From contig CAJXRD010000018.1 in NCBI GenBank assembly GCA_913058295.1, positions 1 to 49,287 on the forward strand: a DNA stretch of 49,287 nucleotides, written 5' to 3'. Both the position numbers and the translations under genes were made by a program. Below, piece after piece: positions 4,842-46,667 of this stretch; the first letter of the stretch is position 1; the number at the start of each line of letters is the position of its first letter. The notes under the pieces are model-generated. The model made no database searches. It was not told the DNA's origin and saw only the letters and a program-made list of their open reading frames with translations. This DNA is from an uncultured Flavobacteriales bacterium (GTDB lineage: Bacteria; Bacteroidota; Bacteroidia; Flavobacteriales; Flavobacteriaceae).

Positions 4842-7163
4842 ATGAATAAAAAGATTCCTTTTTTTATTGTATTCCTATTAGTTGTTGCTTTTCAATCTTT
4901 AGAAGCACAAAACAAAAAACCTAAAGTAGCTGTCGTTTTAAGTGGTGGTGGTGCAAAAGGGATTGCTCATATTCCACTATTGCAAACCTTAGACTCTTTA
5001 GGAATTGTTCCAGATCTTATTATTGGGACTAGTATGGGTAGTGTTGTTGGAGGGTTTTATGCTATGGGTTATTCTGGAGATAGTATTGCATCCATAACTA
5101 AAAAAGCAAATTGGGATGAGCTTTTAGGTGGTAAAACTTCACTTAAAGACGTAAGTATTGAGGAGAAAAGTGAATTCGGGAAATATTTAATAGGACTTGA
5201 AGTCATAGATGGAAAACCAAAAACAACATCTTCCTTATTAAATGATCAATACTTAAGAGAATTTTTGTCATTATACACTTACCCTGTTTACAATATCCAT
5301 AATTTCGATAGTCTTCCTATTCCATATAGAGCAATGACGACAGATATTGTTAATGGTAAAGAAGTGCTGTTAGGTGAAGGCAATTTAGGTGTTGCAATGA
5401 GGGCAAGTATGTCAATTCCTAGTATTTTTAGACCAGTACCTTATAAAGATGTATTGTTAGTTGACGGTGGAATACTTAATAACTTCCCTGTTAATATTGC
5501 TAAAGAGATGGGAGCGGATATTATTATAGGAAGTGATGTTGGAGGGGGTATGAAGCCTAAAGAAGAATTAGAAGGGATTACTACAATTTTATTTCAAACT
5601 GCAATGCTGGTTAGTAATATAAGAAATCCTGAAAGTAGGGAAATGTGTGATATATTAATTGATCATTTACCAAATCTAACTTATTCTACAGGAGATTTTG
5701 GGAGTAGTAACGAAATATACGAAGAAGGTAAAATTGGGACAATTCAAAAAATGGATGCACTTGTATCTTTAGCAAAGAAGCTTGAAGAATTTAACCAAAA
5801 GGAAATTATTCAGCCTTCCATAGAAAAAGAGTTTTTCCTAGATACTATAGTCTATAAAGGAATTAGTGAAGAAAACATTAAGCTTGTTACCTCAAGGGCA
5901 AATATTTTGCCAAAAAATGATTACGAAATCCAAGATCTAATTGATGGAGTAAATAGAGCTATGGGGACCAATCTTTTTACTCAGATTACTACTAAAGCAA
6001 TTAAGAATAATGAAAAATTGGGATTGGAGCTAACTGGCTTTGAAAAATCCCAGCATCAAATTAACGCTTCTTTACATTTTGATAGCTATAGAAGTATTGG
6101 TTTAATTTTAAATTATACTGGTAGAAATGTTCTTGGAAAATCTTCCAGACTTTTAGTAACTGGAGATATAGCGGTACAACCTAGATTGAGGGTTCAATAT
6201 CAAAAGCATTTGGGGCCAAAAAAATCTTGGTGGTGGCGATCGGAAACCCTAGGGGAAATTTTAGAACAAAAAATATTTTTAGACGGTAATTTTGCTGATG
6301 AAATGAACTATCGATACTTTCAGTTTGACAATGAATTTAATAAAAACTTAAACTCTTTAACTAGTTATATAGGATTTGGTTTCAATTATGAAAATACACA
6401 TATAAAACCGAAAGTTGATCCCGAAATTAATGAGAACGTTTTATTGCTAGATAAATATTATTACAACAGTTTTGAGTTGGATATCCATTATATATACAAT
6501 GGATTTAGTACTTTTCTGTTTGCAAATAAAGGAACATTCTTTAAAGCGAAATTAGCTAGATCTTTATATCAAGATGTGGATTTAAAATTTTCAGATGCTG
6601 AGCAAACTACAGTTATTGGTAAAACGAATGATGTTACAAAATTGAGTTTAGAGTTTGAAAAAAGAATTGCTATTAAAAATAAAATAACAGGAATAATTGC
6701 AGCAACTACAGGATTTATTTTTGAAGATTCATTAAGATCTGGAGAGGTGTCTTTTACCGATTATGGCTTTGCGTCTAAATATTTTTTAGGTGGAAATTTA
6801 TTAAGCCCAAGAGAAAGCAGTTATGTTTTCTCGGGTTTACATGAAGACGAGTTAAATGTAAATCAGTTTATGAAACTTAAACTTGGAGTTCAGTTCAACC
6901 CCATAAATAAAGTTTATGTGACTCCCCATTTTAATATAGCTTCTGTTGGATTTGAAAATTTTGAGGATTATATTAAAGATGCTTTTTCTCCAAATGGAAA
7001 TTGGGCAGAACAATTTGAAACAAGTGATTTAATCTCTTTTGGTGCAACCGCTTCTTATGATTCTTATTTGGGGCCATTAAATTTTGATGTCTCTTGGGTA
7101 AACGACATTAATAAGGTTAGATTGTTTTTTAGTTTAGGTTTACAATTAAACATATCCAATTAA
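4842..7163 (+). CDS. Patatin-like phospholipase fused to an outer-membrane beta-barrel
   Basis: The 773-residue protein has a signal peptide (cleavage after SLEAQ, about residue 23) and a patatin domain to about residue 310. The catalytic set is complete: oxyanion loop GGGAKG (35-40), nucleophile Ser64 in GTSMG, and catalytic Asp208 in DGG. A POTRA-like linker (about 325-400) leads to a C-terminal half rich in alternating beta-strands ending in LFFSLGLQLNISN, with a final aromatic-rich strand typical of a barrel. This matches the PlpD/FplA class of self-translocating (type Vd) or surface-anchored lipases. Predicted role: lipid or phospholipid hydrolysis at the outer membrane. The last 26 bases of this gene reappear at 13656-13681 as part of the cassette duplication. 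Confidence 0.85.
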   Translation: MNKKIPFFIVFLLVVAFQSLEAQNKKPKVAVVLSGGGAKGIAHIPLLQTLDSLGIVPDLIIGTSMGSVVGGFYAMGYSGDSIASITKKANWDELLGGKTSLKDVSIEEKSEFGKYLIGLEVIDGKPKTTSSLLNDQYLREFLSLYTYPVYNIHNFDSLPIPYRAMTTDIVNGKEVLLGEGNLGVAMRASMSIPSIFRPVPYKDVLLVDGGILNNFPVNIAKEMGADIIIGSDVGGGMKPKEELEGITTILFQTAMLVSNIRNPESREMCDILIDHLPNLTYSTGDFGSSNEIYEEGKIGTIQKMDALVSLAKKLEEFNQKEIIQPSIEKEFFLDTIVYKGISEENIKLVTSRANILPKNDYEIQDLIDGVNRAMGTNLFTQITTKAIKNNEKLGLELTGFEKSQHQINASLHFDSYRSIGLILNYTGRNVLGKSSRLLVTGDIAVQPRLRVQYQKHLGPKKSWWWRSETLGEILEQKIFLDGNFADEMNYRYFQFDNEFNKNLNSLTSYIGFGFNYENTHIKPKVDPEINENVLLLDKYYYNSFELDIHYIYNGFSTFLFANKGTFFKAKLARSLYQDVDLKFSDAEQTTVIGKTNDVTKLSLEFEKRIAIKNKITGIIAATTGFIFEDSLRSGEVSFTDYGFASKYFLGGNLLSPRESSYVFSGLHEDELNVNQFMKLKLGVQFNPINKVYVTPHFNIASVGFENFEDYIKDAFSPNGNWAEQFETSDLISFGATASYDSYLGPLNFDVSWVNDINKVRLFFSLGLQLNISN

Positions 7164-7180
7164 GATTTTTTAGATATAAT

Positions 7181-7217
7181 AAAAGCCTCCTATTAATAAT
7201 TTAATAGGAGGCTTTTT
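7181..7217. terminator. Bidirectional Rho-independent terminator, copy 1
   Basis: AAAAGCCTCCTATTAA (7181-7196), a four-base loop TAAT, then the exact complement followed by a T-run to 7217. It separates the convergent patatin and ompA genes and can stop both. An exact copy sits at 13699-13735. Confidence 0.9.
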
Positions 7218-7242
7218 GGTTGTTAATTAGAAAGGTTACTTT

Positions 7243-9135
7243 TTAATTTTCTACTATAATAAAGTCTGATCTTCTATTTTTAGCAGATTGTGCTGCGGTA
7301 CAATTTCCACCACAATTTTCTATTGGATTGCTTTTTCCGAATCCTTTTCCACTAACTCTACTTTTATCAATTCCTTTAGAGATTACATATTGGACAGTAG
7401 CTTGTGCTCTTCTATTAGATAGATCCATATTATATTCATCCGATCCTGTATTGTCTGTATGACTTTCTACTTTAACAATCATAGATGGATACTTCTTCAT
7501 TAGAGTTACTAAGTTATCCAATTCAAAAGCAGCTTGCGATTTGATATTGTGTTTGTCAAAGTCAAAAAGGATTGGTTCTAATACTACTTTATCTTCAACA
7601 ACAATAGCTTCAATCGGGCTTAATTTTACACTAGTGTTAAGCGTTTCTTCTTTTTTAGTAGTAAGGGTAACTCCATTACTATCAAAGTTTTCCATAAATG
7701 CTAATACTTGATGCTCTTTTTCACATTCTACTGTAAAGGAAACATTACCATTACTATCTGTGGTTTTGCTAGAAAGCACGTTGTCTTGTGCGTCTATAAC
7801 ATCTACACGAGCTCCAGAGAGTGGCTTGTTAGTATAGTCGTTTAATACTTGTACTGTAAGCGCAACATCACATAAAGGTGCTAATTGCTTAACGCTGTAA
7901 ATATCATCACTACCTGCACCGCCTTTTCTGTTAGAAGAAACATATCCTTCCTCTTTGGCTGCATCAATTATAAAAGCAAAATCATCGCTAGAACTATTTA
8001 AGCCAGCTCCCATAGTTCTTGCATTAGAAAATTCACTTCCCATAGCTTCTGCATAAAATACATCTAAACCTCCAAGGCCAAGATGTCCATCACTTGAGAA
8101 GTATAAAGTTCCATTGGCGTCTAGGTAAGGAAAAACTTCTTTTCCTTCGGTGTTTATACCATTACCTAATGCTTTTGGTGTTCCAAAAGTTCCGTCTTTA
8201 TTGATAGCTACCGAGTAAATATCAGACATTCCTATACCTCCAGGCATATCGCTTACAAAGTATAATGTGTTACCATCTGGACTTAATGCTGGATGTCCTG
8301 TAGAAAACTCACTACTATTAAAAGGAACAGATTCTACCCCTTTCCATTGACCATCTATTAATTCGGCATAGTAAAGGTTGATCTGGTTGATTCCGTCTTC
8401 ACTTTTTTTATACTTACCTTTTAAGAAATCATTACTGTCAAAGTACATCCGTTTTCCATCTGCTGTGATAGCAGCATTACCTTCGTGGTATCTAGAGCTA
8501 ACATCTCCACCCACAAGGTCTGCATCTTTAACAGTACCTCCAACTAGAGAGGCTCTATAAATATCTAAGAAGGGTTGCTCATCCCAGCCATATTTTTTAC
8601 GTTTTGTATTTCTGGCAGAAGTAAAGTAAAGCTCGTTACCAACAGTAATTCCTCCAAATTCTGAATATTCAGTATTAAGGTCTTTTAGGTTGGTTAATGT
8701 GAATTTTTGTTTTTTCTCCATCATCGCAGGGATGTAATCTGGATTTTTCATAAACTCAATAGCTCTAGAATCTGAAGGTTCCATTTTGGAGAATGTTTTC
8801 ATCCAAGTATTGTAATCTCCATATTTACCATTAGCTTTAAGGGATTGTGCATAATTATACACGGTTTCCGATTTAGGACTTTTCCCCTTAACGACACGTT
8901 TGTAATAGGTTTCCGATTTTTTAGTATCGTTAATAAAGTAATAACAATTACCTAATTGTTCGAAAACATATCTATCGCCATCTCCTTTTTTAAGAAGTTT
9001 TTGATAAGCTTCTGCAGCTTCTGTATATGCTAGTCTAGCATAAAGGTCGTCTGCTTTCTTTGTTTTGTTATTTTGAGCATTAACAAGACTTGTGCTAAAT
9101 GCTATAAATAGGAATAATATATATATTTTTTTCAT
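7243..9135 (-). CDS. TPR-PD40-OmpA family outer-membrane protein, copy 1
   Basis: A 630-residue protein with a signal peptide (cleaved near VNAQ, residue ~21). It has TPR-like helices (about 25-135), a PD40/WD40-like propeller (about 145-415, repeated motifs such as GHPALSPDGNTLYFVSD and KEVFPYLDANGTLYFSSD), a carboxypeptidase-regulatory-like beta-sandwich (about 420-510, LSGARVDVIDAQDNVLSS) and a C-terminal OmpA peptidoglycan-binding domain (about 515-628, with SHTDNTGSDEYNMDLSNRRA). This architecture commonly follows porP/sprF genes in Bacteroidota and is thought to link the secreted surface protein or its translocon to the cell wall. It is the last gene of cassette 1, 23 bases after porP, and its protein is identical to copy 2. 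Confidence 0.9.
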   Translation of the reverse strand: MKKIYILFLFIAFSTSLVNAQNNKTKKADDLYARLAYTEAAEAYQKLLKKGDGDRYVFEQLGNCYYFINDTKKSETYYKRVVKGKSPKSETVYNYAQSLKANGKYGDYNTWMKTFSKMEPSDSRAIEFMKNPDYIPAMMEKKQKFTLTNLKDLNTEYSEFGGITVGNELYFTSARNTKRKKYGWDEQPFLDIYRASLVGGTVKDADLVGGDVSSRYHEGNAAITADGKRMYFDSNDFLKGKYKKSEDGINQINLYYAELIDGQWKGVESVPFNSSEFSTGHPALSPDGNTLYFVSDMPGGIGMSDIYSVAINKDGTFGTPKALGNGINTEGKEVFPYLDANGTLYFSSDGHLGLGGLDVFYAEAMGSEFSNARTMGAGLNSSSDDFAFIIDAAKEEGYVSSNRKGGAGSDDIYSVKQLAPLCDVALTVQVLNDYTNKPLSGARVDVIDAQDNVLSSKTTDSNGNVSFTVECEKEHQVLAFMENFDSNGVTLTTKKEETLNTSVKLSPIEAIVVEDKVVLEPILFDFDKHNIKSQAAFELDNLVTLMKKYPSMIVKVESHTDNTGSDEYNMDLSNRRAQATVQYVISKGIDKSRVSGKGFGKSNPIENCGGNCTAAQSAKNRRSDFIIVEN

Positions 9136-9158
9136 TTTGATAGTGCTTAAGTTTAAAA

Positions 9159-10073
9159 TTAGAAATATCTAGGTGATCGTAAGCTACGTTTATTAAAAAA
9201 CACATCCCATGTTATAATAACTTCGTGCGAAGCACTTGCAACAGATTTAATATCTGAAGTTACATGGTCGTAAGCATATCCTATACGAACACTAGGAGTA
9301 ACTTGAAAACCAACTAATGCACTAAAGGAATCGTCTAGCCTATAAGAGGCTCCAATTTCGAACTTCTCATAAAATAAGGCGTTTAGATTAGCATCGAAAG
9401 ATACTGGACCATCAAAATATGTTTTAACAAATCCAGAAGGTTTTAACTTTACGTTATCCGATACTTGAAATACATACCCGGTCGTTAAAAACCAGTGCTG
9501 AATTTCGGCTCCATATTTTAATCCATTTTCATCTAAATGAACAGATTCTAATATATTAGGAACAGAGGCTCCAAAATAGAAATTGTCGTTATATAAAAAT
9601 AGTCCTGTTCCAAAATTAAAATAAGTATTACTTATATTTTCTGAAAAGAAAGGATCATTAGGATCTTGAAGTTCTAGGTCTACTAAACCTACATCGTGGA
9701 AGGTTGCCCCTCCCTTTAGACCTAGTGCAAGCTTAAAACTATTCCCAAGTTCTAATGTATAAGAGAAATCTGCATAAGCATTAGTTTCGGTTACCGGACC
9801 TAATTGATCATTAATAACAGATAGTCCTAGTCCTACTTTATCCCCAATAGGCGAATGTGCCGATAAGGTAAAAGTAACAGGATTGTCTTCTATTCCCGAC
9901 CATTGATTTCTATAAAGGGCAGTAACAGAAAGCCCTTCTTTTATTCCTGCATAAGCAGGATTCACCACCGTCATATTGTACATATATTGTGTGTACTGCG
10001 GATCTTGTTGTGCGTTAACTTCTTGAAACAAAATAAGTCCAAAAAGAAATGTTATAATATATAATTTTTTCAT
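9159..10073 (-). CDS. PorP/SprF family T9SS outer-membrane protein, copy 1
   Basis: A 304-residue protein with a signal peptide (cleavage after VNAQ, residue ~21) and the family opening QDPQYTQYMYNMTVVNPAYAG, followed by membrane beta-strands to the end. In Flavobacterium johnsoniae, SprF is needed to secrete and display the type B adhesin SprB, and genes of this family generally sit directly 3' of the adhesin they serve. The gene lies 34 bases downstream of the adhesin at 10108-13467 and 23 bases upstream of ompA, so the three are probably one transcript. The protein is identical to the one encoded at 15677-16591, so the two adhesins can probably use either. Confidence 0.92.
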   Translation of the reverse strand: MKKLYIITFLFGLILFQEVNAQQDPQYTQYMYNMTVVNPAYAGIKEGLSVTALYRNQWSGIEDNPVTFTLSAHSPIGDKVGLGLSVINDQLGPVTETNAYADFSYTLELGNSFKLALGLKGGATFHDVGLVDLELQDPNDPFFSENISNTYFNFGTGLFLYNDNFYFGASVPNILESVHLDENGLKYGAEIQHWFLTTGYVFQVSDNVKLKPSGFVKTYFDGPVSFDANLNALFYEKFEIGASYRLDDSFSALVGFQVTPSVRIGYAYDHVTSDIKSVASASHEVIITWDVFFNKRSLRSPRYF

Positions 10074-10107
10074 CTTTAGTTATTGGTATTTATTTGGTTT
10101 GTAAAAG

Positions 10108-13100
10108 TTAGTTTTCTTCTCTATTAACATAAACCCATCCTGTGGCTTGATTTCCATAAACTGGATCTTCAGAGTCAAAATCAATGACATAATAATAAGT
10201 TCCTGTTGGTAGAATCTTATCAGCATTAGATTGACCAGTCCATTCTTTTCTATAACTGTCTCTGTTATAAACTACCGCTCCAAGTCTATTAAATACTTGG
10301 AAGTTAGAAATTCCAGAACGGTCATCTAAAAAGCTTAAGTCTAAATAATCGTTATAGCCATCATAGTTATGAGGTGAAAGTCCTTGAGAGATTACACAAT
10401 TTTCATTATCGTAATAGTAAACTTCAACAGAACTTGAACCGGTACATTCTCCAGTTCTTATCGTTACCGTATAGGTGCCTACTTCTGAAGCTTCTAATGT
10501 TGCTGAAGTTTGATTCTCCATTACCGTATCATCTAAACTCCATTGATAAGAAACCCCTTCTTCATCCGTGATTGCTGCTAAAGTAACCGACATATCTGGA
10601 CAAGTTTGAACATTATTTCCTAAGCTTACAAATAAATCATCTCTACCCGTAGTAGTCATTGAATCTTCATCGGAACATTCTCCAATAGAAACTACAACAC
10701 TATAAACGCCGTACTGTGTAGCGTTAAGCGTAGAAGATGTTTCATCGGCGAATTCAACACCATCAAAACTCCATAGATAAGTTGTATCTGCAGGATCTCC
10801 TAAAGAAGGAGTAGCATCTAGAATTAATTGCTCATCAAAACAAGTTTCTATATTTCCACCTAAATCAACCCCTAAATCTCCTAGAGGCGTTAAGGCAATA
10901 CTATCGGTATCTGAACAACCAAATAAATTAACAGTAACAGAATAATTTCCGTGTTCCGTTGCATCTAAAGTAGCAGTAGTATCAGATAATAATACTCCAT
11001 CTAAACTCCATTCAAAAGTAGCATTATTAGGATCTCCAATAGAAGGAGAAGCATCTAAGAATACAGGAGTATTAAAACAGGTGGTAAAATCATTACCTAA
11101 TTCTACACCTAAATCAATTAGAGGTAATAAAGTAATGTTATCTGTGTCAATACAAACGCCAATAGTTACAGAAACAAAATAGGTTCCGTGAGCTGTTGCA
11201 TTTAATGTAGCTGTGGTTTCAGATAAAATCACTCCATCTAAACTCCATTCATATGTTGCAGTATTAATATCTCCAATTGCAGGAGTAGCATCTAAAATAA
11301 CTGAATTTATAAAACAGGTATTAAAATCTTCTCCTAATTCTACACCTAAGTCATTACTTGGGTTAATTATAATAGAGTCTTCAGAAGAACAATTTCCTGC
11401 AGAGACAACTGCGCTATAAGTACCCAATTGAGTTATAATTATGGTTGCTGATGTTTCTCCAGCTAAGATATTTCCATCTAAACTCCATTCGTAAGTTACA
11501 TTAGCTGGGTCCATATTAGAAGGACTAGCATCTAATAAAACTTCAAGTTCAAAACAAGTTGAGAAATCTTCACCAAGATCAAATACTGGGCTTTCTTCTA
11601 AAAGAACATTAACAGTCTGAGTTAGGGTACAACCATCGATTGTTACATCAACACTGTAATCACCAGAACTTGTAACAGTAATAGTTTGTGTATCTTCACC
11701 AGTACTCCATTCGAAAGTTGCATCATCTGGATTCCCGTCAATTACTTCTGCAGTAATATCATAAGAAGTTTCATCACATAATTCTTGATCTTCTCCTAAG
11801 TCAACAGAAAAAGTTGCGACTAGAGTAACAGTAATCTCATCTGTTAAAACAACTACATCCCCATTACAATTAGTATATGTTATTTGAGCGGTATAGGTTT
11901 CTTCCCCATCAGGACAAACATTAATAGTAGGGTCATTACTAATAAAATCACCATTAGAATCTAACCACTCAAAAACGTAGGTTTGTTCCCCAGCTGGTGT
12001 AAAACTCCAGGCTTCATTAGTAGCTGTCCATGGAGAATCAGAAGTGTTTCTTCCTGGTGGTACATAACCGATATTCCCTGCATCATTTTGGATACCAACA
12101 GCAGCATTACCATCATTCCAAGCATCACAAGCAGGCTTGTCTTGCATATAAATTTCAATTACATTAGAAAATTCATAAAAAACAGCCATATGTGTTGCTA
12201 ATAAATTATTACAACCTCCAGAAAACATTGGGACTTCATAATAGGAAACTACTAAAACTCTGTTAGGAAAAGTTCCTAATATTTCCCAAGCTATTTCATT
12301 TGCGTCATTAACAGAAGGGTCAATATCATGAACAGGTGTAAATACATTTGCTTCTGCTAAAGCATCTTCTGTATTGTTAGGCACATCTGCATCAAAACTC
12401 CATGCATTTGATCCTATACCAGTATCATTAGCGTCTACATCAAAACGAATTACTCCATTAGAACCAACTTGAAATTGAGTTTCAATATTTTCAAAGAAAC
12501 AAAAATCAAAAGGCAGAGCTTCTACTGGTGACCAAGCATCATCAATATTTGTGTTTATAGAGTTTGCTAATCCATTAAAAGCATAAGGTGGCTCATATGT
12601 TATAGGGTCTACAGTATAATTCTCTGTTAAACTTTCAAAAGTTGCTAAAAAACTTGCAGTTATATCAGTACAACCATCTCCGTCACATTCTAAAGATATG
12701 TCATCTCCAGCATTTATAAATAAGGAACCTGGTCCTCCACTTAAACAACTTATTAGATTACTAGTAACTTCACAATTAATGTCGTTCGCATCATTAACAG
12801 TCATTATAACATCTGTTGTAGAAGTATAAGGTCCAAAAGTTACAATGCCAGTTGTAGTAACAGATTGTTGCGGGCTTCCTTGATCGTCATTAATATACAA
12901 TTCTGTTGCCGATCCCATATCGCTAATATCCACTAATATAGAAAAATCACTTCCGTCTGTACAATCTCCATCTGTACTAAAAGTCACAGTTGGGTTAATA
13001 CAGGTTTGGCACCAAATATCAAAGTCCCAAGGAGTGAAAGCATTTGTTTCACAGCTAATAACACTATCCGAATCTATCTGAATAGTAATAGTATCTCCGG

Positions 13101-13467
13101 AAGATTGGTAGGTGATTCCTGTTAAATCTCCATTATTTCCATAAGGAGTTGCAGCGTTTAAATTGGTTACGCCATCTGAGTCAAGAACGATAAGTTCATC
13201 AAAATTTACTTCTACTTGCCCAGCATTAAAGAATACATTTAATGGAAATCCACCAGTACTAGTAAATACAAACTGAGTTGTATCATTATTAACATAGCAA
13301 TAAGTCGTATTCAAAGGGCCTGCGGAACAATCTACAATAGTTTGGCCAAAAGAAAGTGTTGTAAAACACATGAATAACATAAAAGTTATTGCCGTTTTAG
13401 ACAAACTTTTAGTTCTTTCAGATAAGTTATTGGATTGATTTTGAAAAAAGAGTATTTGTTTTTTCAT
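10108..13467 (-). CDS. Large T9SS type B adhesin with nidogen-like head and Ig-like repeats
   Basis: A 1119-residue secreted protein. An N-terminal stretch with a signal sequence ends near FGQTIVDC (about residue 42). Residues ~43-165 form a beta domain shared with the second adhesin. Residues ~270-500 hold a head domain resembling nidogen-like/choice-of-anchor modules (PFDFCFFENIETQFQVGSNG, GNAAVGIQNDAGN). About six Ig/PKD-like repeats of ~79 residues follow (pattern LGEDF-TCF...LDA-PS...YEWSLDG...GTYSV-V--G-C). The gliding-motility-associated type B sorting domain occupies about residues 1020-1119 (GLSPHNYDGYNDYLDL...VFNRLGAVVYNRDSY...GTYYYVIDF). It is likely a cell-surface adhesin or enzyme-free binding protein. 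The last 330 residues are identical to the 16626-20063 product; the head is not. Confidence 0.88.
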   Translation of the reverse strand: MKKQILFFQNQSNNLSERTKSLSKTAITFMLFMCFTTLSFGQTIVDCSAGPLNTTYCYVNNDTTQFVFTSTGGFPLNVFFNAGQVEVNFDELIVLDSDGVTNLNAATPYGNNGDLTGITYQSSGDTITIQIDSDSVISCETNAFTPWDFDIWCQTCINPTVTFSTDGDCTDGSDFSILVDISDMGSATELYINDDQGSPQQSVTTTGIVTFGPYTSTTDVIMTVNDANDINCEVTSNLISCLSGGPGSLFINAGDDISLECDGDGCTDITASFLATFESLTENYTVDPITYEPPYAFNGLANSINTNIDDAWSPVEALPFDFCFFENIETQFQVGSNGVIRFDVDANDTGIGSNAWSFDADVPNNTEDALAEANVFTPVHDIDPSVNDANEIAWEILGTFPNRVLVVSYYEVPMFSGGCNNLLATHMAVFYEFSNVIEIYMQDKPACDAWNDGNAAVGIQNDAGNIGYVPPGRNTSDSPWTATNEAWSFTPAGEQTYVFEWLDSNGDFISNDPTINVCPDGEETYTAQITYTNCNGDVVVLTDEITVTLVATFSVDLGEDQELCDETSYDITAEVIDGNPDDATFEWSTGEDTQTITVTSSGDYSVDVTIDGCTLTQTVNVLLEESPVFDLGEDFSTCFELEVLLDASPSNMDPANVTYEWSLDGNILAGETSATIIITQLGTYSAVVSAGNCSSEDSIIINPSNDLGVELGEDFNTCFINSVILDATPAIGDINTATYEWSLDGVILSETTATLNATAHGTYFVSVTIGVCIDTDNITLLPLIDLGVELGNDFTTCFNTPVFLDASPSIGDPNNATFEWSLDGVLLSDTTATLDATEHGNYSVTVNLFGCSDTDSIALTPLGDLGVDLGGNIETCFDEQLILDATPSLGDPADTTYLWSFDGVEFADETSSTLNATQYGVYSVVVSIGECSDEDSMTTTGRDDLFVSLGNNVQTCPDMSVTLAAITDEEGVSYQWSLDDTVMENQTSATLEASEVGTYTVTIRTGECTGSSSVEVYYYDNENCVISQGLSPHNYDGYNDYLDLSFLDDRSGISNFQVFNRLGAVVYNRDSYRKEWTGQSNADKILPTGTYYYVIDFDSEDPVYGNQATGWVYVNREEN

Positions 13468-13512
13468 AAAAAAGAGGTTGTTGGTTATTTTTCGCTAAAT
13501 GTACTTAAAATA
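13468..13512 (-). promoter_or_regulatory. Conserved leader of adhesin 1 with possible promoter
   Basis: The ~45 bases before the adhesin 1 start closely match those before adhesin 2 (20064-20108), although both sequences diverge beyond. On the minus strand, TACATTTA (13496-13503) differs from the -7 consensus TAnnTTTG at one base. The remaining intergenic bases to 13655 hold nothing I recognise apart from AT-rich sequence. Confidence 0.35.
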
Positions 13513-13698
13513 ATGCAACCACAGTAATCATTTTATTATTTTATAATAATTATGAAATACTTGATCTTGTAGTTTTCTATGAGTTTTAAATAAAAATCAA
13601 TAATGATGAGTATTCTAGTTATTTTTTATATTTATGATATTTATGATATTTAGGTGTTTACAATTAAACATATCCAATTAAGATTTTTTAGATATAAT

Positions 13699-13735
13699 AA
13701 AAGCCTCCTATTAATAATTTAATAGGAGGCTTTTT
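13699..13735. terminator. Bidirectional Rho-independent terminator, copy 2
   Basis: Exact copy of the hairpin at 7181-7217. Here it lies between ompA copy 2 and the upstream region of adhesin 1, so it should insulate the two cassettes and keep them as separate transcripts. Confidence 0.88.
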
Positions 13736-13760
13736 GGTTGTTAATTAGAAAGGTTACTTT

Positions 13761-15653
13761 TTAATTTTCTACTATAATAAAGTCTGATCTTCTATTTTTA
13801 GCAGATTGTGCTGCGGTACAATTTCCACCACAATTTTCTATTGGATTGCTTTTTCCGAATCCTTTTCCACTAACTCTACTTTTATCAATTCCTTTAGAGA
13901 TTACATATTGGACAGTAGCTTGTGCTCTTCTATTAGATAGATCCATATTATATTCATCCGATCCTGTATTGTCTGTATGACTTTCTACTTTAACAATCAT
14001 AGATGGATACTTCTTCATTAGAGTTACTAAGTTATCCAATTCAAAAGCAGCTTGCGATTTGATATTGTGTTTGTCAAAGTCAAAAAGGATTGGTTCTAAT
14101 ACTACTTTATCTTCAACAACAATAGCTTCAATCGGGCTTAATTTTACACTAGTGTTAAGCGTTTCTTCTTTTTTAGTAGTAAGGGTAACTCCATTACTAT
14201 CAAAGTTTTCCATAAATGCTAATACTTGATGCTCTTTTTCACATTCTACTGTAAAGGAAACATTACCATTACTATCTGTGGTTTTGCTAGAAAGCACGTT
14301 GTCTTGTGCGTCTATAACATCTACACGAGCTCCAGAGAGTGGCTTGTTAGTATAGTCGTTTAATACTTGTACTGTAAGCGCAACATCACATAAAGGTGCT
14401 AATTGCTTAACGCTGTAAATATCATCACTACCTGCACCGCCTTTTCTGTTAGAAGAAACATATCCTTCCTCTTTGGCTGCATCAATTATAAAAGCAAAAT
14501 CATCGCTAGAACTATTTAAGCCAGCTCCCATAGTTCTTGCATTAGAAAATTCACTTCCCATAGCTTCTGCATAAAATACATCTAAACCTCCAAGGCCAAG
14601 ATGTCCATCACTTGAGAAGTATAAAGTTCCATTGGCGTCTAGGTAAGGAAAAACTTCTTTTCCTTCGGTGTTTATACCATTACCTAATGCTTTTGGTGTT
14701 CCAAAAGTTCCGTCTTTATTGATAGCTACCGAGTAAATATCAGACATTCCTATACCTCCAGGCATATCGCTTACAAAGTATAATGTGTTACCATCTGGAC
14801 TTAATGCTGGATGTCCTGTAGAAAACTCACTACTATTAAAAGGAACAGATTCTACCCCTTTCCATTGACCATCTATTAATTCGGCATAGTAAAGGTTGAT
14901 CTGGTTGATTCCGTCTTCACTTTTTTTATACTTACCTTTTAAGAAATCATTACTGTCAAAGTACATCCGTTTTCCATCTGCTGTGATAGCAGCATTACCT
15001 TCGTGGTATCTAGAGCTAACATCTCCACCCACAAGGTCTGCATCTTTAACAGTACCTCCAACTAGAGAGGCTCTATAAATATCTAAGAAGGGTTGCTCAT
15101 CCCAGCCATATTTTTTACGTTTTGTATTTCTGGCAGAAGTAAAGTAAAGCTCGTTACCAACAGTAATTCCTCCAAATTCTGAATATTCAGTATTAAGGTC
15201 TTTTAGGTTGGTTAATGTGAATTTTTGTTTTTTCTCCATCATCGCAGGGATGTAATCTGGATTTTTCATAAACTCAATAGCTCTAGAATCTGAAGGTTCC
15301 ATTTTGGAGAATGTTTTCATCCAAGTATTGTAATCTCCATATTTACCATTAGCTTTAAGGGATTGTGCATAATTATACACGGTTTCCGATTTAGGACTTT
15401 TCCCCTTAACGACACGTTTGTAATAGGTTTCCGATTTTTTAGTATCGTTAATAAAGTAATAACAATTACCTAATTGTTCGAAAACATATCTATCGCCATC
15501 TCCTTTTTTAAGAAGTTTTTGATAAGCTTCTGCAGCTTCTGTATATGCTAGTCTAGCATAAAGGTCGTCTGCTTTCTTTGTTTTGTTATTTTGAGCATTA
15601 ACAAGACTTGTGCTAAATGCTATAAATAGGAATAATATATATATTTTTTTCAT
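13761..15653 (-). CDS. TPR-PD40-OmpA family outer-membrane protein, copy 2
   Basis: Encodes the same 630-residue protein as 7243-9135: signal peptide, TPR-like helices, PD40 propeller, carboxypeptidase-regulatory-like domain and C-terminal OmpA domain. I found no amino-acid difference, and the opposite-strand frames also match, so synonymous differences are few or absent. It is the last gene of cassette 2 and ends 108 bases beyond the copied patatin fragment. Confidence 0.9.
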   Translation of the reverse strand: MKKIYILFLFIAFSTSLVNAQNNKTKKADDLYARLAYTEAAEAYQKLLKKGDGDRYVFEQLGNCYYFINDTKKSETYYKRVVKGKSPKSETVYNYAQSLKANGKYGDYNTWMKTFSKMEPSDSRAIEFMKNPDYIPAMMEKKQKFTLTNLKDLNTEYSEFGGITVGNELYFTSARNTKRKKYGWDEQPFLDIYRASLVGGTVKDADLVGGDVSSRYHEGNAAITADGKRMYFDSNDFLKGKYKKSEDGINQINLYYAELIDGQWKGVESVPFNSSEFSTGHPALSPDGNTLYFVSDMPGGIGMSDIYSVAINKDGTFGTPKALGNGINTEGKEVFPYLDANGTLYFSSDGHLGLGGLDVFYAEAMGSEFSNARTMGAGLNSSSDDFAFIIDAAKEEGYVSSNRKGGAGSDDIYSVKQLAPLCDVALTVQVLNDYTNKPLSGARVDVIDAQDNVLSSKTTDSNGNVSFTVECEKEHQVLAFMENFDSNGVTLTTKKEETLNTSVKLSPIEAIVVEDKVVLEPILFDFDKHNIKSQAAFELDNLVTLMKKYPSMIVKVESHTDNTGSDEYNMDLSNRRAQATVQYVISKGIDKSRVSGKGFGKSNPIENCGGNCTAAQSAKNRRSDFIIVEN

Positions 15654-15676
15654 TTTGATAGTGCTTAAGTTTAAAA

Positions 15677-16591
15677 TTAGAAATATCTAGGTGATCGTAA
15701 GCTACGTTTATTAAAAAACACATCCCATGTTATAATAACTTCGTGCGAAGCACTTGCAACAGATTTAATATCTGAAGTTACATGGTCGTAAGCATATCCT
15801 ATACGAACACTAGGAGTAACTTGAAAACCAACTAATGCACTAAAGGAATCGTCTAGCCTATAAGAGGCTCCAATTTCGAACTTCTCATAAAATAAGGCGT
15901 TTAGATTAGCATCGAAAGATACTGGACCATCAAAATATGTTTTAACAAATCCAGAAGGTTTTAACTTTACGTTATCCGATACTTGAAATACATACCCGGT
16001 CGTTAAAAACCAGTGCTGAATTTCGGCTCCATATTTTAATCCATTTTCATCTAAATGAACAGATTCTAATATATTAGGAACAGAGGCTCCAAAATAGAAA
16101 TTGTCGTTATATAAAAATAGTCCTGTTCCAAAATTAAAATAAGTATTACTTATATTTTCTGAAAAGAAAGGATCATTAGGATCTTGAAGTTCTAGGTCTA
16201 CTAAACCTACATCGTGGAAGGTTGCCCCTCCCTTTAGACCTAGTGCAAGCTTAAAACTATTCCCAAGTTCTAATGTATAAGAGAAATCTGCATAAGCATT
16301 AGTTTCGGTTACCGGACCTAATTGATCATTAATAACAGATAGTCCTAGTCCTACTTTATCCCCAATAGGCGAATGTGCCGATAAGGTAAAAGTAACAGGA
16401 TTGTCTTCTATTCCCGACCATTGATTTCTATAAAGGGCAGTAACAGAAAGCCCTTCTTTTATTCCTGCATAAGCAGGATTCACCACCGTCATATTGTACA
16501 TATATTGTGTGTACTGCGGATCTTGTTGTGCGTTAACTTCTTGAAACAAAATAAGTCCAAAAAGAAATGTTATAATATATAATTTTTTCAT
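15677..16591 (-). CDS. PorP/SprF family T9SS outer-membrane protein, copy 2
   Basis: Identical in protein sequence to the product of 9159-10073 (304 residues, QDPQYTQYMYNM opening, barrel strands throughout). It sits 34 bases downstream of adhesin 2 and 23 bases upstream of ompA copy 2, keeping the cassette order adhesin-porP-ompA. The expected role is outer-membrane assistance in secretion and surface display of the adhesin encoded just upstream. Confidence 0.92.
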   Translation of the reverse strand: MKKLYIITFLFGLILFQEVNAQQDPQYTQYMYNMTVVNPAYAGIKEGLSVTALYRNQWSGIEDNPVTFTLSAHSPIGDKVGLGLSVINDQLGPVTETNAYADFSYTLELGNSFKLALGLKGGATFHDVGLVDLELQDPNDPFFSENISNTYFNFGTGLFLYNDNFYFGASVPNILESVHLDENGLKYGAEIQHWFLTTGYVFQVSDNVKLKPSGFVKTYFDGPVSFDANLNALFYEKFEIGASYRLDDSFSALVGFQVTPSVRIGYAYDHVTSDIKSVASASHEVIITWDVFFNKRSLRSPRYF

Positions 16592-16625
16592 CTTTAGTTA
16601 TTGGTATTTATTTGGTTTGTAAAAG

Positions 16626-19600
16626 TTAGTTTTCTTCTCTATTAACATAAACCCATCCTGTGGCTTGATTTCCATAAACTGGATCTTCAGAGTCAAAATC
16701 AATGACATAATAATAAGTTCCTGTTGGTAGAATCTTATCAGCATTAGATTGACCAGTCCATTCTTTTCTATAACTGTCTCTGTTATAAACTACCGCTCCA
16801 AGTCTATTAAATACTTGGAAGTTAGAAATTCCAGAACGGTCATCTAAAAAGCTTAAGTCTAAATAATCGTTATAGCCATCATAGTTATGAGGTGAAAGTC
16901 CTTGAGAGATTACACAATTTTCATTATCGTAATAGTAAACTTCAACAGAACTTGAACCGGTACATTCTCCAGTTCTTATCGTTACCGTATAGGTGCCTAC
17001 TTCTGAAGCTTCTAATGTTGCTGAAGTTTGATTCTCCATTACCGTATCATCTAAACTCCATTGATAAGAAACCCCTTCTTCATCCGTGATTGCTGCTAAA
17101 GTAACCGACATATCTGGACAAGTTTGAACATTATTTCCTAAGCTTACAAATAAATCATCTCTACCCGTAGTAGTCATTGAATCTTCATCGGAACATTCTC
17201 CAATAGAAACTACAACACTATAAACGCCGTACTGTGTAGCGTTAAGCGTAGAAGATGTTTCATCGGCGAATTCAACACCATCAAAACTCCATAGATAAGT
17301 TGTATCTGCAGGATCTCCTAAAGAAGGAGTAGCATCTAGAATTAATTGCTCATCAAAACAAGTTTCTATATTTCCACCTAAATCAACCCCTAAATCTCCT
17401 AGAGGCGTTAAGGCAATACTATCGGTATCTGAACAACCAAATAAATTAACAGTAACAGAATAATTTCCGTGTTCCGTTGCATCTAAAGTAGCAGTAGTAT
17501 CAGATAATAATACTCCATCTAAACTCCATTCAAAAGTAGCATTATTAGGATCTCCAATAGAAGGAGAAGCATCTAAGAATACAGGAGTATTAAAACAGGT
17601 GGTAAAATCATTACCTAGTTCTACACCTAATTCATTACTTGAATTAATTATAATAGTGTCTTCAGAAACACAAATTCCAGAAGTTACGATAACACCATAT
17701 GTTCCAAATTGACTAATACTTAAAGTTACTGATATTTCACCTGCAATAACGTTCCCATCTAAACTCCATTGATATGAAGCATCTTCAGGATCCATATTGG
17801 AAGGACTAGCATCTAATAAATCTTCAGTTTCAAAACAAGTATTAAAATCTTCTCCTAATTCTATAATGGGAATAACACCTAAATCTATAATGACACTTTC
17901 GGTAAGCATACAATCGTTAATTGTAACCTCTACAGAATAAACATCTGGGTCACTTACCGTGATACTTGAAGTTGTTTCGCCAGTACTCCAAAGGTAAGCA
18001 GCATTGCTCTCGTCTTCCCCTTCAATTATAGCAGTGATTGTATAGGATTCAACCTCACAAAGACTTATGTCTTCTCCTAAACTTACGGTAAATGAAGTTA
18101 ATTGGACATTAATTTCATCTGTAGTAATGCATTCATTACCAGCTACCTCTACTGAATAAAGACCGTTTTCAATAATTATTAAAGTACTATTGGTTTCTCC
18201 AGTAATTTCTATACCATCTTTAAACCATGTATAAGAAATGTTTGTCAAGTCATCTGGGTTTGAAACTGTTGCGTCTAAAATAGTAGTATCCTCACCACAA
18301 ACAATTAAATCTTCACCAAGATCAAATATTGGGCTAGCTAACATTTCTACGATAATTTCATCGGAAGCAACACAATCTGGAGCTTGTAAAAATTGAACAT
18401 CAACTCTATAAAGTCCTTCTTCTGTTACTAGAAGTGTGTTGTTGGTTTCTCCTACTAATTCTATATCATCCTTAAACCATTGATAAGTTGCATCTTCCGT
18501 GTCTCCAGCATCCAAGGTAATGTCGATATAATTACATTGAGCAGTACCATTTTCAATTAAAATGTCGTTTCCTAAATCTACATTTCCAATATCAAAACTT
18601 CCAGCTTCTATAAAAACTGCTGAGTCATAAGCAGTATCTGTTTCATCAGCTAGAACTAATTTAATGGTATATAAATTCCCTAGAATTACTTCTCCAATAG
18701 CTTGTAAAGAAACTATTTGGCCATTAAAGTCTATAGCTGCTTCACTTTCTGGATTAAAAGGAGCGAAGTTATATTTATCAAAATATTCTTCATTTACAGC
18801 AGAACACTGTCCTGGGACGTCTGGTCGAATATTAGTAACTTCAATAGGAATATTAGTGCCAGGTAAAACAGCAAGATTTTGAACAACACCAGTATCTGTA
18901 TCGGTAAGAATAAAAGCAAAAGCATCAGAATAGGTACATTCAAAATTTTGATTGTATTCTTCAGAAGCCAATAAAAAATTAAAACTTATTTGATCTACAA
19001 GAGGAACAAAATCAAATTGGATAAAGGAAGCATTATTTGTATCTGTAGCTGTTGTATTGGCTTCCAAATCTGCATCTCCTGGCCAATCAAATCCACCATC
19101 ACCATGTATGGTTTCATTAGGACCTGGTGCATTTTGTACATTTCCAGAGGATAAAACAATACCCTCTTGAAACGGGAATGAAGCACCATTGGAGTCGAAA
19201 GCGGCTATTCCGTTAACATCTCCAAAATCTGTCCCCGTACTTTGACTAAAATTTGAAAGTTCAACACATCCACTACCAAAGAGGATATCCTCTACTAATT
19301 CTTGGGTAGTATAACTTTCATCAATGGTAATAAATCCACCCAAACAAGTAATAGTATCACTAGTTAACACACAATTTATATCGTCGGGGTTACTAACTAT
19401 AATGATTACTTCAATTTCTATGGGATAGGGTCCAAAAGTTACGATACCAGGATTAGCTATACTTTGTTCGGGGCTTCCCTGGTCATCATTTATGTTTAGT
19501 GAAGTTGCAGATCCCATATCTGAAATATCTACAAAAATGGAGTAATTATCACCAAGGGTACAATCGCTAGTATCGTATGTTACTGTTGGATTGATACAAG

Positions 19601-20063
19601 TTTGACACCAAATATCGAAATCCCAAGGAGTGAAAGCATTTGTTTCACAACTTATAACATTGTCAGAATCTATCTGAATAGTAATAGTGTCTCCAGAAGA
19701 CTGATAGGTGATCCCTGTTAAATCTCCATTGTTCCCATAAGGAGTTGCAGCGTTTAAATTGGTTACGCCATCTGAGTCTAAAACAATAAGTTCATCAAAA
19801 TTTGCCTCTACCTGCCCTGCATTAAAGTATACATTAAGAGGAAACCCATCTGTGTTTGTAAACACAAATTGAGTAGTGTCACTATTTACATAACAATAGG
19901 TAGTATTTACAGGGCCTGCTGCACAATCTACAATAGTTTGTCCAAAAGAAAGTGTTGTCAAAAACAGAAAAAACCCAAAAGTAACTGCCAATTTTGACAA
20001 ACCTTTGGGTTTTTTAGACGATTTTTTGGATTGATTTTGAAAAAAGAGTATTTGTTTTTCCAT
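16626..20063 (-). CDS. Large T9SS type B adhesin with choice-of-anchor L head and Ig-like repeats
   Basis: A 1145-residue paralogue of the 10108-13467 product. Residues 1-165 are similar to it (MEKQILFFQNQS..., FGQTIVDCAAGPVNTTYCYVN). Residues ~245-500 instead form a choice-of-anchor L domain (FPFQEGIVLSSGNVQNAPGP, LLASEEYNQNFECTYSDAFAFIL, PGQCSAVNEEYFDKYNF, DSAVFIEAGSFDIGNVDLG). About seven Ig/PKD-like repeats follow, and the last ~100 residues are the type B sorting domain. Residues 816-1145 are identical to the tail of adhesin 1. It is predicted to be a surface-exposed binding protein exported by T9SS with the help of the porP gene immediately downstream. Ligand unknown. Confidence 0.9.
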   Translation of the reverse strand: MEKQILFFQNQSKKSSKKPKGLSKLAVTFGFFLFLTTLSFGQTIVDCAAGPVNTTYCYVNSDTTQFVFTNTDGFPLNVYFNAGQVEANFDELIVLDSDGVTNLNAATPYGNNGDLTGITYQSSGDTITIQIDSDNVISCETNAFTPWDFDIWCQTCINPTVTYDTSDCTLGDNYSIFVDISDMGSATSLNINDDQGSPEQSIANPGIVTFGPYPIEIEVIIIVSNPDDINCVLTSDTITCLGGFITIDESYTTQELVEDILFGSGCVELSNFSQSTGTDFGDVNGIAAFDSNGASFPFQEGIVLSSGNVQNAPGPNETIHGDGGFDWPGDADLEANTTATDTNNASFIQFDFVPLVDQISFNFLLASEEYNQNFECTYSDAFAFILTDTDTGVVQNLAVLPGTNIPIEVTNIRPDVPGQCSAVNEEYFDKYNFAPFNPESEAAIDFNGQIVSLQAIGEVILGNLYTIKLVLADETDTAYDSAVFIEAGSFDIGNVDLGNDILIENGTAQCNYIDITLDAGDTEDATYQWFKDDIELVGETNNTLLVTEEGLYRVDVQFLQAPDCVASDEIIVEMLASPIFDLGEDLIVCGEDTTILDATVSNPDDLTNISYTWFKDGIEITGETNSTLIIIENGLYSVEVAGNECITTDEINVQLTSFTVSLGEDISLCEVESYTITAIIEGEDESNAAYLWSTGETTSSITVSDPDVYSVEVTINDCMLTESVIIDLGVIPIIELGEDFNTCFETEDLLDASPSNMDPEDASYQWSLDGNVIAGEISVTLSISQFGTYGVIVTSGICVSEDTIIINSSNELGVELGNDFTTCFNTPVFLDASPSIGDPNNATFEWSLDGVLLSDTTATLDATEHGNYSVTVNLFGCSDTDSIALTPLGDLGVDLGGNIETCFDEQLILDATPSLGDPADTTYLWSFDGVEFADETSSTLNATQYGVYSVVVSIGECSDEDSMTTTGRDDLFVSLGNNVQTCPDMSVTLAAITDEEGVSYQWSLDDTVMENQTSATLEASEVGTYTVTIRTGECTGSSSVEVYYYDNENCVISQGLSPHNYDGYNDYLDLSFLDDRSGISNFQVFNRLGAVVYNRDSYRKEWTGQSNADKILPTGTYYYVIDFDSEDPVYGNQATGWVYVNREEN

Positions 20064-20252: not shown

Positions 20253-21464
20253 ATGATTGAAAAATCTACTATAGATTACGAAAGAGCAGTACTTATTGGG
20301 TTAATAACTCAAAAACAAAATGCAGATAAGTCTAATGAATACTTAGATGAATTAGAGTTTTTAGCATATACTGCAGGGGGAGAAGTTCTGAAACGTTTTG
20401 TTCAAAAACTAGAAAACCCAAATTCTAAAACATTTTTAGGTTCTGGAAAAATTGAGGAAGTAAGAGAATACGTTGAAAAGAACGAAGTAGGATTGGTGGT
20501 TTTTGATGACGAGTTATCTCCTGCACAACAAAGAAATATAGAAAGAATCTTAGAATGTAAAATTATAGATCGCACCAATTTAATACTCGATATTTTTGCC
20601 CAAAGAGCACAAACGAGTTATGCGAGAATGCAAGTAGAATTGGCACAATATCAATATCTATTGCCACGATTAACAGGAATGTGGACGCATTTAGAAAGGC
20701 AACGAGGAGGAATAGGAATGCGTGGTCCAGGAGAAACAGAAATTGAAACAGATCGTAGAATTGTTCGGGATAGAATTTCTTTATTAAAAAAGAAGTTAAC
20801 TAAAGTAGATAAACAAATGTCGGTTCAAAGAGGGAACCGAGGTGCACTAATTCGTGTAGCATTAGTGGGGTATACCAACGTTGGAAAATCTACATTAATG
20901 AATGTGATTAGTAAGTCTGATGTATTTGCAGAAAACAAACTTTTTGCAACTCTAGATACGACCGTTCGAAAAGTAGTAATTAAGAACCTTCCTTTTTTGG
21001 TTAGTGATACCGTTGGGTTTATTCGTAAACTTCCTACTCAATTAGTAGAATCGTTTAAGAGTACTTTAGATGAAGTTCGTGAGGCAGATTTACTATTACA
21101 TATTGTAGATATATCACATCCAAACTTCGAAGATCACATCGCTTCTGTTGAGAAGATTCTAGGAGAAATTAATGCATCTGACAAGCCTTGTATAATGGTC
21201 TTTAATAAAATTGATGCCTATGAACCAGAAGTAATAGAGGAAGATGATTTAATAACTGAAAAAACAACAGCGCATTATACTCTTGAGGAATGGCATCAAA
21301 CTTGGATGAATAATGAAAAGGGAGAGGCAATTTTTATTTCAGCCTTAACCAAAGAAAATTTAGAAGATTTTAAGAAGATAGTTTATGATAAAGTGAAGGA
21401 ATTACATATTACCCGCTTTCCTTACAATCAGTTTTTATATGAAGACTATACAGAGGAAGAATAA
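20253..21464 (+). CDS. hflX: Ribosome-associated GTPase HflX
   Basis: A 403-residue protein with the HflX N-terminal domain (LEFLAYTAGGEVLKRFVQKL, FLGSGKIEEV, VVFDDELSPAQQRNIE), the glycine-rich linker RGGIGMRGPGETEIETDRR (about 151-169) and a TRAFAC GTPase domain: G1 GYTNVGKS (206-213), G3 DTVGF, G4 NKID. HflX binds the 50S ribosomal subunit and in other bacteria splits stalled ribosomes under stress. Length and motifs are normal for the family. The gene is monocistronic, bounded by the divergent adhesin cassette upstream and a bidirectional terminator downstream. Confidence 0.95.
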   Translation: MIEKSTIDYERAVLIGLITQKQNADKSNEYLDELEFLAYTAGGEVLKRFVQKLENPNSKTFLGSGKIEEVREYVEKNEVGLVVFDDELSPAQQRNIERILECKIIDRTNLILDIFAQRAQTSYARMQVELAQYQYLLPRLTGMWTHLERQRGGIGMRGPGETEIETDRRIVRDRISLLKKKLTKVDKQMSVQRGNRGALIRVALVGYTNVGKSTLMNVISKSDVFAENKLFATLDTTVRKVVIKNLPFLVSDTVGFIRKLPTQLVESFKSTLDEVREADLLLHIVDISHPNFEDHIASVEKILGEINASDKPCIMVFNKIDAYEPEVIEEDDLITEKTTAHYTLEEWHQTWMNNEKGEAIFISALTKENLEDFKKIVYDKVKELHITRFPYNQFLYEDYTEEE

Positions 21465-45215: not shown

Positions 45216-46631
45216 TTATTTTACAATTAATTTTTTAGTTGTAGTCTTATTTATATTAACTAAATAAATACCCGACTTTAAACTTGAGATATTAATTTCT
45301 TCCGAATTAGTATTTGAGAAATTTAAATCAAGAACTTTTTGACCTAAAAGGTTGTAGATTTCAACATTTGTAAGAGGTTTGGTTGTTGAAGTTATGGAAA
45401 ACTTGCCATTAGCTGGGTTAGGGTATAATGAAAACTTTAAGTTATCTGTAACATCATTGTTTGCTAATAAAGTTTGATCTATAGCTAAAGTAAATCCATT
45501 TCCTCCTGAAATTGGAATATTTCCACTTGCAAAGTAAGGGTACACATTCCAGGCTCCATTATAACTAGCATTATTATTTGATGGGTAAGAATCAAAATAA
45601 CCATCTGGAGACATATTTCCATTTTCAATATCACTAATATCTACTATACGTAAACCAGAAGAATAATTCGCAAGGTAATATTTGTCTCCTACTATATAGC
45701 CATTATGATCTACAGAAGAAGTTTCACTATAGTATTCATAATGTAAAATTGGGTTGTCTAAATCTGTTAGGTCGAAAACAACAGTTCTGGTATTAAACCC
45801 AAAGTCAAACTCATCTCCTTCATCTCCTAATAACATGTAGTTACGATCTTCAGTCAACCAGTTTTGATGTGTATATCCTGTTGAAGGGTATAAAAAAGAA
45901 CTTATTACTACTGGGTTGTTTTTATCTGTAACATCTATTATAGCTACATGATCTGCATTACTACCAAAATAAATTTCGCGCCCAGTATAATCCGCATCTG
46001 GACCATCGTAAACAATAACTTGAGCATCATGAGTATAGCCTTCATCAGCAAATCCTCCAGCAGCTACAGGATTTAATGGGTCAGAAATGTCAATAAAATG
46101 TGGGCCTCCGTTAAAATCATCACCACCTACTGAATATGCAAAACCAGTTTCTTCATTGATCACAATATTATGAACACCTCCAATTTCACCATAATGAGCA
46201 TCCTCATCAAATGTTTCAGGTGGGTTAGCAACATTACGTAAACGAGTAAGATCAAAAACTTGCATTCCATGTCCACCAGCTTCGCTTACTATAAAAGCGT
46301 GATTGCTATAAACTTTAATGTCTCTCCAAATACTTGCACTTGTATGAGTTGGTAATTTTCCTAAATAAATAGGATTAACTGGATCTGAAATATCAATAAA
46401 TGCAGTTCCATTATCTAGTCCAATAAGAGCATATTCTTTTCCGTCTTGAGGATCAGTCCATCCCCATGAATCATTTCCTCCTGATGCACTCATTTGACCA
46501 AGTGAAATGTGGGATTGTAAAGCGTAACCATCGCATGGATATCCTGCTGCAATTCCATTTACACATGGGGTTTGAGCGAAAGCAAAAAATGTAGCAAAAA
46601 AGGCTACTAGAGGTAAAATTTTCTTATTCAT
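45216..46631 (-). CDS. Choice-of-anchor B family T9SS type A surface protein, paralogue A
   Basis: A 471-residue protein with a signal peptide (MNKKILPLVAFFATFFAFAQ). The body is a beta-propeller of LVIVD-type repeats (GTAFIDISDPVNPIYLGKLPT, HFIDISDPLNPVAAGGF, VAIIDVTDKNNPVVISS, VVFDLTDLDNPILHYEY), the choice-of-anchor B family. The C-terminal ~75 residues are a T9SS type A sorting domain (LYPNPANGKFSI, VEIYNLLGQKVLDL, LKSGIYLVNINKTTTKKLIVK). The propeller carries many conserved histidines (GHGMQVF, DAHY, HNIVI, THDAQV, THQ, DHNGY). Predicted to be exported through T9SS to the surface; the function is unknown. Confidence 0.87.
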   Translation of the reverse strand: MNKKILPLVAFFATFFAFAQTPCVNGIAAGYPCDGYALQSHISLGQMSASGGNDSWGWTDPQDGKEYALIGLDNGTAFIDISDPVNPIYLGKLPTHTSASIWRDIKVYSNHAFIVSEAGGHGMQVFDLTRLRNVANPPETFDEDAHYGEIGGVHNIVINEETGFAYSVGGDDFNGGPHFIDISDPLNPVAAGGFADEGYTHDAQVIVYDGPDADYTGREIYFGSNADHVAIIDVTDKNNPVVISSFLYPSTGYTHQNWLTEDRNYMLLGDEGDEFDFGFNTRTVVFDLTDLDNPILHYEYYSETSSVDHNGYIVGDKYYLANYSSGLRIVDISDIENGNMSPDGYFDSYPSNNNASYNGAWNVYPYFASGNIPISGGNGFTLAIDQTLLANNDVTDNLKFSLYPNPANGKFSITSTTKPLTNVEIYNLLGQKVLDLNFSNTNSEEINISSLKSGIYLVNINKTTTKKLIVK

Positions 46632-46659
46632 ATTTTTTTTTTAAATTTTTAAAAGTCGA

Positions 46660-46667
46660 CAAAGTTA
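46660..46667 (-). promoter_or_regulatory. Candidate -7 promoter element for choice-of-anchor B paralogue A
   Basis: The minus strand reads TAACTTTG, matching TAnnTTTG, 28 bases upstream of the start at 46631. It could drive paralogue A and, if transcription passes the palindrome, the propeller-MbnP-MbnH genes. Confidence 0.42.

Follow-up and report, generated by a model that had tools for sequence, protein, structure and literature searches.

An identical 3,962-bp module behind two divergent putative type B adhesins of an uncultured Flavobacteriales bacterium, and its probable concerted evolution in Flavobacteriaceae

Results

The window, i.e. the whole stretch of 49,287 nucleotides analysed here (uncultured Flavobacteriales bacterium, family Flavobacteriaceae; GenBank assembly GCA_913058295.1, contig CAJXRD010000018.1), carries two predicted adhesin cassettes of the type IX secretion system (T9SS), arranged in tandem on the minus strand and sharing an exactly duplicated module. 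Read from the hflX side towards the patatin side, the gene order is adhesin B, porP, ompA, adhesin A, porP, ompA. Cassette A comprises adhesin A (1119 amino acids, 10108-13467), a porP/sprF shuttle gene (9159-10073), and an ompA-family, PorE-like gene with PD40, carboxypeptidase-regulatory-like and OmpA regions (7243-9135), with the corresponding genes of cassette B being adhesin B (1145 amino acids, 16626-20063), porP/sprF (15677-16591), and ompA (13761-15653). The pair is flanked by two plus-strand genes, encoding a patatin-like phospholipase/Omp85 protein (4842-7163) and an hflX-like GTPase (20253-21464), the latter adjoining the locus in many relatives too. A bidirectional terminator-like hairpin of 16 pairs lies at 7181-7216 and recurs unchanged at 13699-13734.

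Both adhesins terminate in a type B sorting domain (PF13585, CHU_C; minus strand, 10126-10392 in A and 16644-16910 in B, each inside the repeat), which scored 66-68 bits against a cutoff of 27; with TIGR04131 they scored 31.6-31.9 bits, just under the cutoff of 35. The gene directly downstream of each adhesin was assigned to porP/sprF by PF11751 (298 bits) and TIGR03519 (277 bits, cutoff 90.55). PorE combines PD40 and OmpA domains with a carboxypeptidase-regulatory-like stretch. The OmpA-family protein of the window has PD40 and OmpA domains, with scores of 354 bits for the NCBIfam PorE model and 428 bits for CHU_0125, below the respective cutoffs of 600 and 620.

The initial annotation had reported two equal blocks at a constant offset of 6,518, and base-by-base comparison bore this out: 7138-11099 (module of cassette A) and 13656-17617 (module of cassette B) are identical over 3,962 bp with 0 mismatches, intergenic stretches included. 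The next longest exact run at this offset is 12 bp, and mismatches per 100 positions reach 58-78 in the flanks (5601-7100 and 11101-13000), with 44 in 11101-11200. The block encompasses the last 334 adhesin codons, rather than the 330 residues given earlier, together with porP/sprF and the PorE-like ompA gene, whose proteins are identical between copies as had been stated, the hairpin terminator, and the 26 bp with which the patatin gene ends. No third full copy was found in a search of the genome, the six other matches being partial (36-343 bp).

The left edge of the repeat, overlooked in the initial annotation, falls 26 bp inside the convergent patatin/Omp85 gene (7138-7163). Copy 2 carries the same 26 bp as an orphan patatin 3' end (13656-13681, plus strand), intact at 26/26 positions, and 13655/13656 is therefore the derived junction of the tandem. 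A short tandem array, TATTTATGA repeated 3.7 times (13620-13652), adjoins this junction.

Upstream of the block the adhesins are diverged, in agreement with the earlier description. Their residues 1-201 are homologous, with 65-91% nucleotide identity per 25 codons and synonymous differences at 56 codons; the middle parts cannot be aligned; a stretch of 69-72% identity follows (residues 624-698 of adhesin A), after which identity begins, with 0 synonymous differences inside the block. The middle of adhesin B is a choice-of-anchor L domain (passenger B, residues 256-490; 18594-19298, minus strand; NF038133, 148 bits). That of adhesin A had no match in Pfam or NCBIfam, and contains a conserved domain of about 295 amino acids (passenger A, residues 226-520; 11908-12792, minus strand), with a mean column identity of 66% in 16 sequences. 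Relatives of passenger A occur elsewhere in the same genome at 66%, 43%, and 35% identity. An A-type followed by a B-type adhesin upstream of one porP was seen in 9 of the 20 loci read, so the two passengers represent separate old families. The order in the window, with B adjoining hflX, is unlike that of these nine loci. For the DNA farther upstream of adhesin A, an origin in an hflX-A intergenic region was considered and rejected: outside a common leader of about 60 bp, the six upstream regions compared with it all did no better than their shuffled versions.

The block was matched in 18 of 19 genomes of the genus, with two full copies present only in the window's own. The nearest species, G017, matches the block at 89-90% (about 10.5% different), so that the window copies, as assembled, are far closer to each other (100%) than to this species (about 89.5%). 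Its contigs carry hflX, adhesin B and the start of porP, then, after a gap of about 540 bp, ompA and patatin; passenger A was not found at this locus in the G017 assembly, which is 81% complete, the best match (65%) being on another contig, as in other genus members.

To cover the family, 249 genomes including the window's own were searched for PorP matches at E up to 1e-90. Matches were obtained in 73 genomes, 14 of which had two or more, and the identity of the porP pairs in these 14 was bimodal: 96-100% in seven (the window, G070, G098, G123, G201, G216, and G224) and 60-75% in the other seven (G055, G058, G090, G128, G137, G187, and G259). Seven relatives had been chosen first for equal or close PorP scores or because the genes lay next to each other, which introduces a selection bias, and the six multi-copy genomes added afterwards were all negative for homogenised porP (6/6). 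G070, G098, and G201 are single contigs, and G123, G216, and G224 are drafts to which the assembly caveat of the window applies.

In G098, loci 386 kb apart share 3,481 bp with 2 mismatches, joining adhesin tail, porP, and ompA; in G201, loci 142 kb apart on opposite strands share 3,471 bp of the same composition with 1 mismatch (3,548 bp at 99.2% in a longer alignment), and are 98-100% identical over about 3.2 kb of the 5' part; their middle cannot be aligned. G216 has a tandem sharing 3,063 bp with 3 mismatches, behind adhesins 68% identical in amino acids, and the 1,979 bp shared in G123 (1 mismatch) are ended by both contigs' ends. In G070 (L144-L146), a stretch of about 40 kb that runs over the ends of the contig holds four adhesin-porP-ompA cassettes, arranged as two pairs that are separated by about 9 kb of other genes, and their modules are about 96-99% identical; an ompA gene reads through the contig join, which supports a circular contig. 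Two pairs were measured in this genome, and a fifth match (56% to the query) was left out of the comparison. The 300 nucleotides just upstream of porP are 100% identical in the window, G098, and G201, 92% in G123, and 86% in G216.

Among 80 loci, one other with two modules was present in the stretch covered, namely L081. This locus, in a Winogradskyella metagenome-assembled genome (6055-20071), shows a 6.85-kb tandem of the whole adhesin-porP-ompA cassette at 99.8%, with differences only near its ends. A flavobacterial-type adhesin-porP-ompA module was also seen in L052, labelled Candidatus Rokubacteria, and is probably contamination. L156-L157 (G055) contain near-identical internal repeats (99.6-99.8% over 1.6-4.9 kb) kilobases upstream of porP, perhaps within a giant adhesin.

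G098, G201, G123, and G224 represent four genera and have the same two loci, with neighbouring genes 68-88% identical in amino acids to those of G098. Locus one lies behind a 783-amino-acid gene that reads like penicillin-binding protein 1C, and locus two behind exodeoxyribonuclease-, OmpA-family-, and aldo/keto reductase-like genes, all named from sequence reading. Module DNA, defined as the last 450 nucleotides of the adhesin plus porP, clustered the eight loci by genome (100/100), with identities of 99.9, 100, 94.6, and 85.0% within genomes and 68-79% between them. Adhesin residues -600 to -220 clustered by locus (100/100), so that the middle parts track the locus and not the genome in all four genera, and the last 220 amino acids paired by genome in G098, G201, and G123. 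The shared segment is thus more alike within than between genomes at these eight loci, as it is for the window pair, and in the four genera the duplication is older than the identity. These trees indicate a module under concerted evolution with stable passengers in four genera, independently of how the window was assembled.

Within the genus, tree tests were made on clades chosen after the identities were known. The clade L009+L010+L011 was rejected for the tail (p 0.0025) and PorP (p 0.0056), and not for ompA (p 0.077); the clade of the window, L009, and L010 (with G017 where present) was rejected for the passenger (p 4e-6), the N-terminal domain (p 8e-4), and ompA (p 0.01), and not for hflX (p 0.08). 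This weak or mixed pattern suggests that tail and PorP share a history unlike that of the N-terminal domain and passenger. Partial Mantel correlations over 64 rows, given hflX, were 0.38 for tail-porP versus 0.36 for tail-ompA, so PorP is not singled out. Where one locus holds two adhesins, the tail trees paired them within the locus in L031 (84/86) and L029 (91/81), were unresolved for L037, L047, and L048, and gave no pairing for L027, L028, L034, and L035.

The window is the whole of contig C18 in a 3.07-Mb draft of 95 contigs. C18 overlaps by exactly 55 bp with C33 (end of C18, start of C33) and with C67 (start of both contigs), and its positions 79-133 repeat the final 55 bp of C50. A k of 55 is the largest default of metaSPAdes. 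Exact 55-bp overlaps at contig ends point to short-read assembly on a de Bruijn graph with k=55. In such a graph any repeat that exceeds k in length is collapsed into a single edge and printed twice, so minor differences may have been lost, and the exact identity of the window copies depends on this assembly.

Discussion

With a probability of roughly 0.8, we read the locus as a pair of T9SS type B adhesin cassettes, each consisting of adhesin, porP/sprF shuttle, and PorE-like probable cell-wall anchor, whose modules were recently made identical by homologous recombination between cassettes, as one case of concerted evolution in Flavobacteriaceae. On this reading each adhesin has a ligand part of its own, whereas export tag, shuttle, and anchor are the same in both cassettes. 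Recombination between copies, through gene conversion or unequal exchange, had already been proposed in the initial annotation, and it is well supported by the lack of synonymous and intergenic differences, the divergent passengers, and the recurrence of this pattern at clearly old duplicate loci in single-contig genomes. Most simply, such concerted evolution would take the form of gene conversion. Recombination between cassettes, presumably of RecA type, would copy the shared 3' module from one adhesin locus to another, along tracts that can reach the ends of homology or be shorter, as in G224. Homology ends within the passenger at one edge and just past ompA at the other (here in the patatin end), so that tracts can cover everything the cassettes have in common without making the passengers alike. 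The event in the window may have been a conversion between older cassettes, or an unequal exchange fusing an A-type and a B-type cassette at 13655/13656, with conversion rather than crossover being the inferred course.

Several observations weigh against this reading. Two full modules were found in 0 of the 18 other genus genomes searched, several of which are incomplete, and seven of the 14 multi-copy genomes are not homogenised. The last 220 amino acids of the G224 adhesins do not pair by genome; in this genome porP is 98.8% identical, the tails 58%, and the 1,500 nucleotides downstream 68%, indicating that the C-terminal domain (CTD) is not always part of the block. The 300 nucleotides upstream of porP likewise reach only 74 and 87% in the two G070 pairs and 58% in G224. 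Finally, short-read assembly at k=55 may hide small differences between the window copies, and the number of A units may differ from that assembled. A strict rule by which CTD and shuttle always convert together was discarded, being broken by G224 and G070.

A sub-case of the recombination reading has somewhat less than an even chance: the tandem may have arisen recently by unequal exchange between A-allele and B-allele chromosomes of one species, the modules being alleles with no later conversion. The initial annotation had regarded the identity as recent and the cassette pair as old; recombination of the copies is well supported, and an old age of the array is not, as a comparison of relatives for one or two cassettes left the window's own as the one tandem among 19 genus genomes. 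With no other genus genome holding two full modules, two alleles may have fused recently to give the window tandem; the intact orphan patatin end at the junction and the A-only or B-only loci of relatives point the same way. By itself, such an exchange leaves the identity between loci separated by 142-386 kb in other genera unexplained.

It is rather unlikely that the cassettes form a diversification system in which passengers change places between loci by way of the N-terminal and module arms. The near-identical arms flanking an unalignable middle in G201 would fit such a role, as would the first 300 amino acids of the G224 adhesins, which are 97.7% identical between loci, but passenger segments keep to their locus in four of four genera (G098, G201, G123, and G224). 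An assembly artefact, in which only one module is real, or slightly different modules of at least one strain were collapsed and printed twice, is quite improbable. The k=55 overlaps at the contig ends are compatible with it, as is the 16S gene, whose match stops at model position 870 where contig C24 (length 44,330) ends; however, junction 13655/13656 is unique sequence, which a de Bruijn graph does not invent, the path patatin-repeat-A-junction-repeat-B-hflX appears to be the only simple one using each unique edge once, and the same pattern is present in single-contig genomes. Purifying selection alone holding two old modules identical, an option raised in the initial annotation, which would fit the cognate pairing of shuttle and CTD reported in Flavobacterium johnsoniae (PMC12618676), is scarcely credible, as synonymous and intergenic positions in the block are identical too, and this DNA is about 10.5% diverged in the nearest species.

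The cassettes resemble known systems to differing degrees. The parts of PMC12618676 used here describe five operons of substrate, shuttle, and PorE homologue in F. johnsoniae, in which a type B substrate, an SprF-like shuttle, and a PorE-like protein have the gene order and protein types seen in the window; there, PorP/SprF shuttles take up type B CTDs, and CTDs that are close to each other show some crosstalk. The last 368 amino acids of SprB are reported to be enough to form a complex with SprF (PMC9143113), and here the last 334 amino acids of the adhesins lie in the identical block. The same portions of these two papers deal with cognate pairs and some crosstalk and do not describe homogenised copies, whereas the copies here are homogenised.

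Concerted evolution of adhesin paralogues is shared with babA/babB of Helicobacter pylori, in which 3' segments are reported to be alike within a strain and the 5' and middle parts alike between strains (PMC3960876). In that account the segment is the 3' part of one gene, whereas the tract here covers three genes, shuttle and anchor among them, and both the phylum and the secretion system differ. In Flavobacterium psychrophilum, an inversion of about 1.9 Mb is described as lying between inverted repeats of 10 kb that hold adhesin, PorP/SprF, and outer membrane protein (OMP) genes (PMC5808330), likewise repeated three-gene cassettes recombining within a genome; those copies are dispersed and inverted and known via the inversion, and the part of the source drawn on does not state a constant module versus a variable passenger. 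For Porphyromonas gingivalis, gene conversion and allelic exchange have been invoked for the diversity of T9SS-exported surface proteins (PMC5266723), the portion consulted being concerned with between-strain variation in gingipain/HagA domains, and PorP modules not being its subject. No description of homogenised type B modules behind different passengers was found among the matches listed in searches of open-licence literature.

We suggest tentatively, as a possibility that remains doubtful, that flavobacteria keep a standardised, recombining export-and-anchor module (shuttle and anchor, often with the export tag) behind several adhesin passengers that stay different; these adhesins would load on interchangeable outer-membrane shuttles, with modules acting as recombination arms. 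Given the uptake of type B CTDs by PorP/SprF shuttles and the crosstalk between close CTDs, identical modules should make the shuttles interchangeable, and if these are kept identical while passengers differ, the adhesins may share one secretion and anchoring specificity. If the suggestion holds, identical modules would double as arms for gaining, stacking, and inverting adhesin cassettes, and passenger and module could be studied as separate evolutionary units. Inversions and cassette gain in flavobacteria would have a likely substrate in these modules; the fish pathogen F. psychrophilum is one species with a reported inversion of this kind (PMC5808330). Assemblies made from short reads can conceal modules like these.

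Apart from the cassettes, the window contains three tandem paralogous genes (45216-49269; 471, 476, and 349 amino acids) with Por_Secre_tail sorting domains. Its last 300 bases match the other two paralogues at 75-76% nucleotide identity, and the contig ends just past the third.

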